Below are positions 53,916-58,914 of a stretch of DNA of 64,000 nt, piece after piece (the stretch's first letter is position 1; every line of letters starts with the position of its first letter). The notes beneath the pieces were generated by a model. It saw nothing but the letters and a program-made list of their open reading frames with translations. It did no database searches and was not told where the DNA came from. The DNA lies in contig SIAJ01000012.1 in assembly GCA_009691845.1 (NCBI GenBank), positions 1 to 64,000 on the forward strand. Direction: 5' to 3'. This stretch comes from Gemmataceae bacterium (GTDB lineage: Bacteria; Planctomycetota; Planctomycetia; Gemmatales; Gemmataceae). Position numbers and translations under genes: made by a program.

Positions 53916-55316
53916 TCATCCACGCAACCTCGGCAGGCCCTTCTTTCCGCCGAACTGATTCTGAAACTCGAAGAACTGCTCCACCAACGAATCGGGTGTG
54001 GCACCGGGCCGGCCTTCGATGCGAAGGCGGCTTCGTTCGATGTGAATCTTGCCGACAAAACCCGTCACTGTCACGTCACAGGAACTGGCATCACTGGTCA
54101 CGCGAACAGAAACCCCGGGTGGTGAATCGTCCTCGATGCGGTCGACGAGGGCCTCGACGTCGATTGGTTTGTCAAACTCGAATTCGAGCGATGAGAGAAA
54201 GCTGCCGAATACTTTGCGGAAGCCCGCGGAACGCAATACATCCGCGTTCGAGATCTGGCTGACTTCGCGTCGCCAGATAACGCTCGACAGATCCTCGGGG
54301 TCAAGACTCACACTCACGGTGAAATCAAAAGCGGGTGTGCGAATGATCGCGAGACCACCAGCCTCCACCGTGGATTCCAGGTCTTTTCGTTTGAAGCCGA
54401 GTTGCTCGCGGAGGGAGTTGTAGGTCTCCTCCACGATGGCTTTCAGGTTCTCGGCCGCGAGACGATACGTCCATTTCTGCGAAGCGGGCGACGCGGAAGT
54501 CGGGAGTTCAAAGTTCTTCTGATAACCCGCCAGGTTCTTCCACTTGTCCCGCTTCTCGCCACGAAAGACGATCCGCTTGAGCTTCTTCAAGTCGAGTTTC
54601 GCCGTGGCTGGGTTCGCTGCGAGGGTCACGTTTGCCAGAACGGCGTCCCTGGGACCGAACACCTGTGGAGTCTGCGCTTCGGGGGAAGAGATCGCCTTAC
54701 GAATGGCACGCGGCATCTCCTCGTGCGTCCAAGCGAGCAGTGTCTCCGCACGGACTTGCCCGTCCACGATCGCCTTCGGGGCTTTCCCCGCGAGTGCATC
54801 GCCGACGAGTTGCAACCAGAGCCGTCGAGCCTTGGCCACGTAGGAAACTTCGCCCTCCATGCAAGCGGTGAGAGCGACAGCCGACCCGTTGTTCGGGAAC
54901 AGTTCACGCAGTTCTTCGTCACTCGAGCCCGGTGCGTCGACGATGAAACGGCACGTCACATCGGATACACTCAAGACGCGAACCACATCACCAAGTGCAA
55001 ACGATGTCGCCTCACGATCGTCCGCCAACGTATCCGCACAGGCCAGGAAACTACGATCCGTCGCCACGAAAGCGGGACCCGCGTAGATGAACCAAAGAGT
55101 ATCGCCGAGCTTGAGGAGTTTTGCGACTTTGCGTAGCCGCGATTCGGCCGCGGAGCGGGTCGCCGTTGGACCGGCAAGAACAAACTGCTGAGCTTTGGCG
55201 AAGCCGACTAATTCGAGCTGGCTCGCGAAGGCTAAAACCTCCGCCTCCGCGAATGGGCACGGAGGCAGGCCTTCGGATGCCTCAACTCCCATCAGGATGG
55301 CGTATTGCGTGCTCAC
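53916..55316 (-). CDS. Caspase-fold (peptidase C14-like) protein lacking the catalytic dyad
   Basis: 466 residues. The N-terminal 140 residues follow the prokaryotic caspase/metacaspase pattern: QYAILMGVEASEGLPPCPFAEAEVLAFASQLELVGF (strand, helix), GPTATRSAAESRLRKVAKLLKLGDTLWFIYAG, RSFLACADTLAD, and RFIVDAPGSS. In active members IYAG is followed by His-Gly and VDA by Cys; here they are Pro81 (YAGPAF) and Pro129 (VDAPGS), so both catalytic residues are gone. The remaining 300 residues are unrecognised: a basic helical stretch and a beta-rich end (DFTVSVSLDPEDLSS, GVSVRVTSDASSCDVTVTGFVG). No signal peptide. The fold assignment is inference from pattern. Confidence 0.72.
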   Translation of the reverse strand: MSTQYAILMGVEASEGLPPCPFAEAEVLAFASQLELVGFAKAQQFVLAGPTATRSAAESRLRKVAKLLKLGDTLWFIYAGPAFVATDRSFLACADTLADDREATSFALGDVVRVLSVSDVTCRFIVDAPGSSDEELRELFPNNGSAVALTACMEGEVSYVAKARRLWLQLVGDALAGKAPKAIVDGQVRAETLLAWTHEEMPRAIRKAISSPEAQTPQVFGPRDAVLANVTLAANPATAKLDLKKLKRIVFRGEKRDKWKNLAGYQKNFELPTSASPASQKWTYRLAAENLKAIVEETYNSLREQLGFKRKDLESTVEAGGLAIIRTPAFDFTVSVSLDPEDLSSVIWRREVSQISNADVLRSAGFRKVFGSFLSSLEFEFDKPIDVEALVDRIEDDSPPGVSVRVTSDASSCDVTVTGFVGKIHIERSRLRIEGRPGATPDSLVEQFFEFQNQFGGKKGLPRLRG

Positions 55317-55385
55317 TCGGTTCCTCGATTACCTTCGATCGCTATTGAGTATCCTACAAGTGTAAGGTTAACGAAGATTCGCCGA

Positions 55386-55418
55386 TTGTCGCCTTTCGCT
55401 CCGCGAAAGGCGACAATC
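55386..55418. repeat. 33-bp perfect palindrome, second copy of the TTTCGCTCCGCGAAA hairpin
   Basis: ATTGTCGCCTTTCGC and GCGAAAGGCGACAAT pair exactly around TCC. It matches the repeat at 14475-14506. It lies 15 bp upstream of the thymidine phosphorylase start, so it may form a leader hairpin in that message. Confidence 0.9.
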
Positions 55419-55432
55419 AAGCGGAGTGTGAT

Positions 55433-56752
55433 ATGCGTGCCGTCGATGTGATCCGCCGAAAACGCGATGGCAAGGAACTCACACACGAGGAAGTCGAGGC
55501 CTTCGCGCGCGCGGCCGCCGATGGTTCCTGGTCGGACTATCAACTTTCCGCACTGCTCATGGCCATCTTCCTGAATGGAATGACGCCGGCCGAAGCGGCA
55601 ACGCTGACCGGTGCGATGGCAAATTTCGGCACACGCTACCGTTGGGACGATGTTCCCGGACCAAAGGTAGATAAACACAGCACTGGCGGCGTCGGGGACA
55701 AGACCTCCCTCATCCTGGCCCCACTCGCGGCAGCGTGCGGGGCGATCGTGCCGATGATGTCGGGTCGCGGGCTTGGGCACACGGGGGGAACTCTCGACAA
55801 GCTCGAAGCGATCCCCGGCTTCCGCGTCGGCCTCGACGAACAGGAACTGCGAACCGCGTTGAAAACCATCGGCGTCGGCATGATCGGCCAGACGCCGACG
55901 GTTGCGCCAGCGGATCGCAAGTTGTATTCGCTGCGTGACGTGACTGGCACGGTCGAGAGTATTCCGCTCATCACTGCGTCGATTCTTAGCAAGAAACTCG
56001 CGGAAGGAATCGACTCGCTTGTCATGGACGTGAAGGCGGGCCGCGGTGCGTTCATGAAAACGCACGCGGAAGCCCGAGCCCTAGCCGAGTCGATCGTACG
56101 CGTGGGCACCGCGAATGGCCTACGAACGGAGGCCCTGATTACGGAGATGGAATTCCCACTCGGCCGGGCGATTGGCAACTCGCTTGAGGTCATCGAGTGT
56201 CTAGAAACGTTGAAAGGTCGCGGCCCGAAGGACCTGGAAGATCTCTCGGTTACCCTCGCGGCCCGCATGATTCGCCTGGCCGGCCTGGCGGATTCGGATA
56301 ACGAGGCCCAGGCGAAAATCCGCCAGGCACTTACGAGCGGGGCCGGTCTGGAAAAATTCCGGCAGATCGTGCAACAACAAGGAGGTGATCCCCGCATCGT
56401 TGACGATTACACTCTTTTCCCGACCGCACCACATCGAACGACCATCGTTGCTGATCGCTCTGGGTATATCACGGACCTCCACGCCGAGAAAATCGGCATG
56501 GGCGGCATGATTCTCGGTGCAGGCCGCCAGCGGGCTGAAGACCGCGTGGATCATGTCGTGGGCGTGATCGTGAGAGCTCACCTCGGCGAACAAGTCGCGA
56601 ATGGTGATGTCGTGCTCGATGTGCACTACCGCGATGAATCAACCTTGGCGAATGCGTTGCCACTGCTTCGAAAGTCGGTAACGATAGGAAACGAGGCACC
56701 AGCGTGGAGAGAACTGGTACTGGAAACTATTCGGGGGAACAGTGTATCGTAG
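55433..56752 (+). CDS. deoA: Thymidine/pyrimidine-nucleoside phosphorylase
   Basis: Splits thymidine (and possibly uridine) with phosphate in nucleoside salvage. 439 residues, the family length. The signature VDKHSTGGVGDKTSL is present, as are SGRGLGHTGGTLDKLEAIPGF, LYSLRDVTGTVESIPLI, SKKLAEGIDSLVMDVKAGRGAFM, and a C-terminal PYNP domain (GYITDLHAEKIGMGGMILGAGRQRAEDRVDHVVGV). It cannot be said whether it prefers thymidine (DeoA) or several pyrimidines (Pdp). The GTG-rich hairpin region upstream leaves little room for a promoter. Confidence 0.94.
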   Translation: MRAVDVIRRKRDGKELTHEEVEAFARAAADGSWSDYQLSALLMAIFLNGMTPAEAATLTGAMANFGTRYRWDDVPGPKVDKHSTGGVGDKTSLILAPLAAACGAIVPMMSGRGLGHTGGTLDKLEAIPGFRVGLDEQELRTALKTIGVGMIGQTPTVAPADRKLYSLRDVTGTVESIPLITASILSKKLAEGIDSLVMDVKAGRGAFMKTHAEARALAESIVRVGTANGLRTEALITEMEFPLGRAIGNSLEVIECLETLKGRGPKDLEDLSVTLAARMIRLAGLADSDNEAQAKIRQALTSGAGLEKFRQIVQQQGGDPRIVDDYTLFPTAPHRTTIVADRSGYITDLHAEKIGMGGMILGAGRQRAEDRVDHVVGVIVRAHLGEQVANGDVVLDVHYRDESTLANALPLLRKSVTIGNEAPAWRELVLETIRGNSVS

Positions 56753-58274: not shown

Positions 58275-58320
58275 TGGGGCAGAGGGGACAGATTTGTCCC
58301 CTCTGCCCCATCTTTTTTCA
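58275..58320 (+). terminator. Strong hairpin terminator
   Basis: A stem of about 17 bp (GGGGCAGAGGGGACA at 58277-58291 pairs with TGTCCCCTCTGCCCC at 58296-58310, extended by AT/AT) with loop GATT is followed by CTTTTTT. It closes the DUF1501 gene and lies against the end of the convergent Hint-domain gene. Confidence 0.92.
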
Positions 58321-58914
58321 CTTCGCTTGGGTCACCGCACTTTCCTCCGTCGCTGGCGGTTTGCCCTTGGCCAGGAATCCACCGGCCACGAAGACGGCCG
58401 ATTCGCCAACAACAAGATTGAACACCGGGGCATCTTCCTCGGTCTGGACCACAGACATTACGCGGGTTTCTTGTCGCTTTCCTTCAAGCCACCGCCAGAT
58501 CACATCGCCCGTCTTTAGATTGCCCGCTGTTTGAAACCCGCCGGAGGCCAGGCATAAAGGCTGCAAACCAGTGGTGCGAAGGGTGCCCGACTCGGTTCGA
58601 AGATTAACCAGCCGGTTCGTTGAGCGAAAGACTGAGAGTACGGGCCCGCGAATCGTTGAACCGTCCGAAGCAACCAGAGTCAGGATCTCACCCGGCTTGA
58701 TGGTCTCGATGGCACGCAAGCCATCCGGAGTGGCGATTGCCGTGCCGCCCGGGAAACAACCGGGGTGGCATGGCGGATATAGATTCTCCTTCTTGGGGGT
58801 CGTTTTCTCGCTAGAAGTAGCGGAAGTCTGATTTCCAGACTTGCTCGGCTTGTTGTCGTTGCAAGCCGAGACGCCGATGAGCACGGCGACTGCGAGGAAC
58901 GGGATTCGATACAT
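58318..58914 (-). CDS. Lipoprotein with a solitary Hint (hedgehog/intein) domain
   Basis: 198 residues. The signal peptide (MYRIPFLAVAVLIGVSAC) has a lipobox VSAC. A Ser/Thr/Lys linker leads to a Hint domain at about residues 53-186: it begins CFPGGTAIATPDGLRAIETIKPGEILTL (Cys53 as in intein block A), has LVNLRTESGTLRTTGLQPL at block B and QTAGNLKTGDVIW, and closes with APVFNLVVGESAVFVAGGFLAKGK. The TxxH histidine of block B is Gln118, and the terminal His-Asn is replaced (FLAKGK), so self-cleavage is probably impaired. GGAG lies 8 bases before the ATG. Its function on the cell surface is unknown. Confidence 0.85.
   Translation of the reverse strand: MYRIPFLAVAVLIGVSACNDNKPSKSGNQTSATSSEKTTPKKENLYPPCHPGCFPGGTAIATPDGLRAIETIKPGEILTLVASDGSTIRGPVLSVFRSTNRLVNLRTESGTLRTTGLQPLCLASGGFQTAGNLKTGDVIWRWLEGKRQETRVMSVVQTEEDAPVFNLVVGESAVFVAGGFLAKGKPPATEESAVTQAK

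Follow-up and report, generated by a model that had tools for sequence, protein, structure and literature searches.

The window analysed here, a 64,000-nucleotide stretch of Gemmataceae DNA, contains a gene for a 466-residue protein in which a predicted caspase fold without its catalytic dyad is followed by a conserved C-terminal domain (CTD). We interpret this protein as a pseudo-orthocaspase of Gemmataceae whose dead caspase fold would serve as a regulatory or docking module for a function-bearing CTD, an explanation to which we give a probability of roughly 0.55. Both the CTD family and its fusion to a dead caspase appear to be undescribed so far. The gene starts with a GTG codon; its parts and its neighbours are listed in Table 1.

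Table 1. Features of the fusion gene and its surroundings, in positions of the window.
Feature	Position	Strand	Basis
Pseudo-caspase/CTD fusion gene, 466 residues	53916..55316	-	Open reading frame and translation; relatives aligned end to end
Predicted caspase-fold domain without catalytic dyad, residues 1-232	54621..55316	-	AlphaFold2, Foldseek, homologues matching PF00656
Pro81 at the position of the catalytic His	55074..55076	-	Aligned to the His of L024, L028 and L038
Pro129 at the position of the catalytic Cys, loop shortened	54930..54932	-	Residue position
CTD, residues 241-455, predicted alpha+beta domain; invariant R310, P328 and D392	53952..54596	-	Conservation, AlphaFold2
Pyrimidine/thymidine nucleoside phosphorylase, conserved divergent neighbour	55433..56752	+	Pfam; adjacency in 21 genomes of 11 genera
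Intergenic region of 116 bp between the two divergent genes	55317..55432	.	Open reading frame coordinates
Ser/Thr kinase-TPR gene with two in-frame TAG codons	51098..53311	-	Pfam; reading frame; not conserved

A sequence-only reading of the window had recognised a caspase-like core in this protein and proposed structure prediction as a check. The motifs ILMGV, LWFIYAG and RFIVDA are all present, and the predicted structure is a caspase-clan fold rather than a different one. The protein itself has no match in Pfam, including PF00656 at its curated cut-off, and it matches the NCBIfam model caspase_w_EACC1 weakly (E 7.5e-4, 19 bits against a cut-off of 140), therefore the assignment rests on the relatives and on the predicted structure. 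Homologues that align over the full length match Pfam Peptidase_C14 with E-values down to 1.8e-16; PF00656 is matched by L024, L028, L020 and L004. L024 aligns to positions 2-225 of the 233 in PF00656, and a p10-like part may thus be present.

The full-length AlphaFold2 model, built from a 26-row alignment, has a mean pLDDT of 87.7. In residues 1-230 every ten-residue block reaches a pLDDT of at least 85, with values mostly above 90 in the caspase domain. With a pTM of 0.53, the model does not fix how the two halves are arranged. When the model is compared with the PDB using Foldseek, the top match is the MALT1 paracaspase (3uo8_B, E 2.5e-12; 3v4o_A has a TM-score of 0.69 on the target), followed by GSU0716, metacaspases, caspases and legumain, and the best 50 PDB matches listed are all caspase-clan structures. 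A sequence search of the PDB with the single 466-residue sequence gave no match. Residues 1-232 are accordingly modelled as a caspase-fold domain (clan CD, C14). The domain takes in the second half of the fold and stops near residue 232, and between it and the CTD lies a linker of low model confidence (residues 234-240, approximately). The C-terminal part that had been described as 300 residues long and unassignable is indeed unassigned, but it is shorter, about 220 residues (approximately 241-456), since the caspase domain reaches further than was thought.

The loss of the catalytic histidine is unambiguous, YAGHGF reading YAGPAF around Pro81. For the cysteine, Pro129 is the second residue after the conserved Asp127, and there is no cysteine within six residues after Asp127. 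The loop that carries the cysteine is shortened and the aligner is free to put APGS before or after the gap, so that the replacement by Pro129 is a statement on position and not a proven point substitution. The claim that both catalytic residues are replaced by proline thus stands for Pro81 and in a positional sense for Pro129. Judged by its sequence, the protein is predicted to be a caspase homologue without catalytic activity that is joined to a so far undescribed domain, as had been proposed, and the family is kept under selection (see below).

The prolines are not conserved in orthologues. Pro/Pro is found only in the window protein and its nearest relative, Zavarzinella formosa DSM 19928 (G010, 49% identical). 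The main Gemmataceae clade (SH-aLRT 96) has 40 members, 38 of them with a caspase half; a cysteine at or near the expected place is found in none of these 38, and the histidine is kept in two. Arginine at the histidine position together with aspartate or glutamate at the cysteine position occurs in 23 main-clade members, Arg/Asp being the commonest pair, and the arginine is fixed in all 23 Gemmata-type members. Orthologues with an intact dyad, which the sequence-only reading would have counted against itself, do exist: His-Cys and the same CTD are combined in L024 (G080), L028 (the second copy in G032) and L038 (G154), but all three fall outside the main Gemmataceae clade in the tree. Also outside it are L036, with Tyr-Ser, and L020, L037 and L040, each of which has lost one of the two residues. 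Because the members outside the clade show Tyr-Ser or single losses as well as intact dyads, the aligned sequences indicate that the dyad is lost more than once. Two dyad states are found within one genus, His-Cys in L024 (G080) and Tyr-Ser in L036 (G461), a difference that suggests a fairly recent loss. That the ancestor was active we infer from which clades keep the dyad, in a tree whose root is not known.

Modelled alone with AlphaFold2 from 40 sequences, the CTD comes out as a compact domain with a pLDDT of 92.2 and a pTM of 0.88. It has no match in Pfam, NCBIfam or PADLOC, and a CTD profile finds nothing convincing among the PDB sequences (best E 0.47). Compared by structure with the PDB using Foldseek, its best E-value is 4.7e-4 with a query TM-score of 0.21, and the TM-score is at most 0.27 among the best 50 matches. 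The order of elements in the model reads as two beta-alpha-beta4-alpha units, an arrangement shared with the TBP-like and helix-grip folds. In BFVD, viral TATA-box-binding proteins are weakly matched (E 1e-3 to 3e-2, TM-score about 0.3). We leave the CTD without a fold assignment, as it gave no significant superposition on a known TBP-like or helix-grip member. The order of secondary structures also suggests an internal duplication, against a profile comparison of the two halves, in which hhalign gives a probability of 0.2%.

By protein search, 26 of 99 genomes contain the family, a count that takes in the genome of the window. With the CTD profile the family is present in 46 of 95 Gemmataceae genomes, in one copy each except for G032, which has two; three more genomes have two partial matches on short contigs, as would be expected if the assembly had split a single gene. 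In a phylum-wide sample the gene is present in 11 of 392 genomes, again counting the window's genome. In a motif scan that covered 84,980 species, 27 loci came up, and almost all of them carry planctomycete titles (Gemmataceae, Gemmata, Fimbriiglobus, Zavarzinella and unclassified Planctomycetota); this alignment-based contig scan mostly returned sequences already collected (24 of the 27), and a contig scan with the single protein as query gave no locus. One Gemmataceae-type member, L115, is on a contig titled 'Bacteroidales bacterium', probably a mislabelled bin. Genomes rarely have more than one copy of the gene, whose tree follows the Gemmataceae genera. No relatives were found in plasmid and viral collections at the sensitivity used.

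In close pairs of relatives, the window protein itself having no close relative, approximate dN/dS values (Nei-Gojobori) are about 0.04-0.30 for the caspase half and 0.01-0.28 for the CTD. Both halves are under purifying selection in these relatives, and the dead domain is constrained, although less than the CTD. The mean over all pairs is 47% alike for the CTD versus 41% for the caspase half, and for the window protein against all others it is 39% versus 30%. Given the low dN/dS in close pairs, the dead caspase domain is not decaying freely.

The CTD also occurs in open frames that contain no caspase domain, in eight Planctomycetota genomes (G001, G015, G095, G392, G426, G331, G442 and G235). 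The CTD-only genes of G001 and G015 are at the locus of the fusion gene, divergent to the phosphorylase and followed by purE (and purK in G001); in G008 the purE-purK pair likewise lies behind the fusion gene. These loci are most simply read as a loss of the caspase half in G001 and G015, with the direction unproven and the branches long. In G331 a CTD-only gene (L125, G331:C15:1-14000) is located close upstream of a CHAT-TPR gene, a single case. CHAT is a caspase-clan protease domain, and in this genome the CTD may be linked in trans to caspase-clan proteins.

The CTD-only genes bring up the main rival explanation, in which all of the function resides in the CTD and the caspase half would be a leftover that still folds, does little and is on its way to loss, as in G001 and G015. 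It would account for the lower conservation of the caspase half and for the many different residues that replace the dyad. We consider it unlikely, as purifying selection clearly acts on the caspase half, which is of full length in 38 of the 40 clade members, and as every Gemmata-type member has the same arginine at the histidine position, paired with aspartate or glutamate.

Three other caspase-like open reading frames are found in the window's genome, and none of them has an intact dyad; the assembly has a completeness of 94%, and a distant caspase might escape such searches. The first (L141, G000:C11:58000-64000, minus strand, 879 residues) is a second dead caspase of this genome, with His replaced by Gln and Cys by Asn. 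It has a signal-peptide-like start, the caspase-like domain and then an apparent PDZ and S41-type protease sequence; open reading frames of similar length with a caspase-like match are present in G033, G055, G472, G480 and others. The second (L142, G000:C40, 756 residues) keeps the histidine and has Asn for the cysteine, with a zinc-ribbon-like N-terminus and a probable membrane helix before the caspase-like part. In the third (L001, G000:C52:2428-5709) a formylglycine-generating-enzyme-like sequence is joined to a caspase-like domain; the His-Gly is kept and the frame ends before the cysteine, so it is probably truncated or frameshifted.

These proteins bear on the possibility that the dead caspase acts as a decoy or dominant-negative, restraining or activating an active caspase in the way animal cFLIP does with caspase-8. 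Other caspase-like proteins are usual in Gemmataceae genomes, being found in all 12 genomes that were rechecked with other profiles. A dead copy (L007) and a copy with an intact dyad (L028), both with the same CTD, are present together in G032, yet this is the sole such pair in the 46 genomes. A cFLIP-like partnership is unlikely in the window's genome because none of its three other caspase-like open reading frames is intact, and as a general explanation we find it quite improbable. The absence of PF00656 matches in 10 genomes was discarded as a sign that a partner caspase is missing, since that scan missed L028 (54 bits).

The conserved neighbour of the gene is the divergent nucleoside phosphorylase. 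It is located within 5 kb of the fusion or CTD gene in 21 of the 46 genomes (11 genera), in the same orientation in all, and it is often followed by cytidine deaminase and uracil phosphoribosyltransferase genes. In 17 of the 46 genomes the phosphorylase is elsewhere or on another contig, and in eight it was not found. Among the 95 genomes, 38 have both the CTD and the phosphorylase, 8 the CTD only, 21 the phosphorylase only and 28 neither (Fisher p 1e-4, ignoring kinship). The link looks ancestral and not obligatory, because the two are both present but apart in 17 genomes. From gene order alone, a role of the CTD in nucleotide metabolism is suggested. Elsewhere in the window, a 198-residue protein (58318-58914, minus strand) has a weak Hint/PT-HINT match, an intein-like autoprocessing domain, and a lipoprotein-like start.

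A signalling role had earlier been argued from the adjacent kinase gene, and a defence setting had been considered. The kinase gives no such support: both of its TAG stops lie inside the kinase domain, it is likely a pseudogene, and it is not a recurrent neighbour of the orthologues in the loci compared. It is probably not part of the same system. Membership in a caspase-centred conflict system (defence or cell death) related to the EACC1 type would fit the NCBIfam model of EACC1-associated caspases, which is matched by 20 of 26 members (best E 3.8e-27), the generic PADLOC caspase model, matched by 11 members, and the TRADD-N/caspase conflict proteins that passages of PMC8195603 place in Gemmata. 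But the NCBIfam scores are below the cut-off (0 of 12 genomes reach it), the 5' gene is the phosphorylase and not EACC1, and there are no variable effector domains. A near single-copy gene whose tree follows the genera, which adjoins nucleotide-salvage genes and for which the plasmid and viral collections gave no relatives, also speaks against a defence setting, and we regard this explanation as very improbable. That the gene is an ordinary decaying one or an annotation artefact, as the broken kinase next to it might hint, is hardly credible for a frame that is open in dozens of genomes, with purifying selection in the relatives and a confident predicted structure.

In the explanation we prefer, a regulatory or docking caspase fold, the ancestor would have been an active caspase fused to the conserved CTD. 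The protease chemistry would have been lost in the Gemmataceae lineage and the fold kept, controlling or docking the CTD in a non-catalytic manner, presumably by binding a partner or a ligand. The main function would be carried by the CTD as the effector or ligand-binding half, perhaps tied to nucleotide metabolism. Because the relatives have a working-looking caspase, a dead one or none at all, it is probably the C-terminal half on which the function depends.

A bolder version, which we hold to be rather improbable, is that the CTD is an undescribed domain family, possibly with a new fold arrangement, with a sensing or controlling role in the nucleotide metabolism of Planctomycetota. The initial fusion would have given it the caspase as a protease switch, and in Gemmataceae the caspase would then have become a purely structural regulator, its former active site rebuilt as Arg-Asp/Glu (Gemmata) or Pro-Pro (this lineage). 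If true, a bacterial caspase has been recruited from proteolysis into housekeeping regulation. The relatives form a natural series on a constant CTD (intact dyad, one residue lost, both lost, the whole caspase domain lost), and a non-catalytic role of the caspase fold is therefore testable by comparing them. With one member in the named and sequenced type strain of Zavarzinella formosa and others in Gemmata, the question is open to bench work.

Dead caspase homologues of planctomycetes are already known as a class. According to Asplund-Samuelsson et al. 2012 (PMC3501461), in the passages that deal with the dyad, it is kept in 84% of bacterial caspase homologues and in only 64% of planctomycete ones; the fusion, the CTD, the locus and the series from active through dead to lost are absent from those passages. 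The window protein, without a Pfam C14 match, may be too divergent for such surveys. A literature search on orthocaspase and Planctomycetes found no paper, and in the titles and passages returned by one on caspase and Gemmata this fusion is not described.

The closest comparison is with the pseudo-orthocaspases, which have been surveyed in Cyanobacteria and Rhizobiales (PMC6426788, where the word 'Planctomycetes' is absent from the main text) and of which one, SyOC, has a knock-out phenotype (PMC7889975). They share with the window protein a prokaryotic p20 fold, a replaced dyad and often a long C-terminal part without known domains. With a predicted p20 fold and a substituted dyad, the window protein probably belongs among them and not among the active orthocaspases and metacaspases, which have His-Cys where it has Pro81 and Pro129. 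Pseudo-orthocaspases are also characterised by the lack of a p10 domain; in this family a p10-like part may be present, given how far L024 aligns with PF00656. The substitutions differ, as those of Cyanobacteria and Rhizobiales are mostly Tyr-Ser, Tyr-Ala, Tyr-Asn or similar and here they are Pro-Pro or Arg-Asp/Glu. Unlike the C-terminal parts seen there, the CTD forms a defined family, which is found on its own as well.

By profile, the nearest named caspase subfamily is that of the EACC1-associated caspases (NF047832; PMC7159879), from which the window protein differs in a score below the NF047832 cut-off, in the lack of the two-gene arrangement (a 5' co-directional EACC1 membrane gene is absent) and in having no known effector domain. 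The MALT1 paracaspase, the best structural match of the N-terminal domain at about 10-14% identity, differs from the window protein in being an active enzyme that also carries Ig, death and other domains. Like cFLIP, the protein has an inactive caspase domain fused to another domain, but cFLIP acts on caspase-8 through death-effector domains and here there is no consistent active partner. What appears to be new here is the family of the CTD, together with the residue pairs that replace the dyad and the series from active to dead to lost caspase at a conserved locus.
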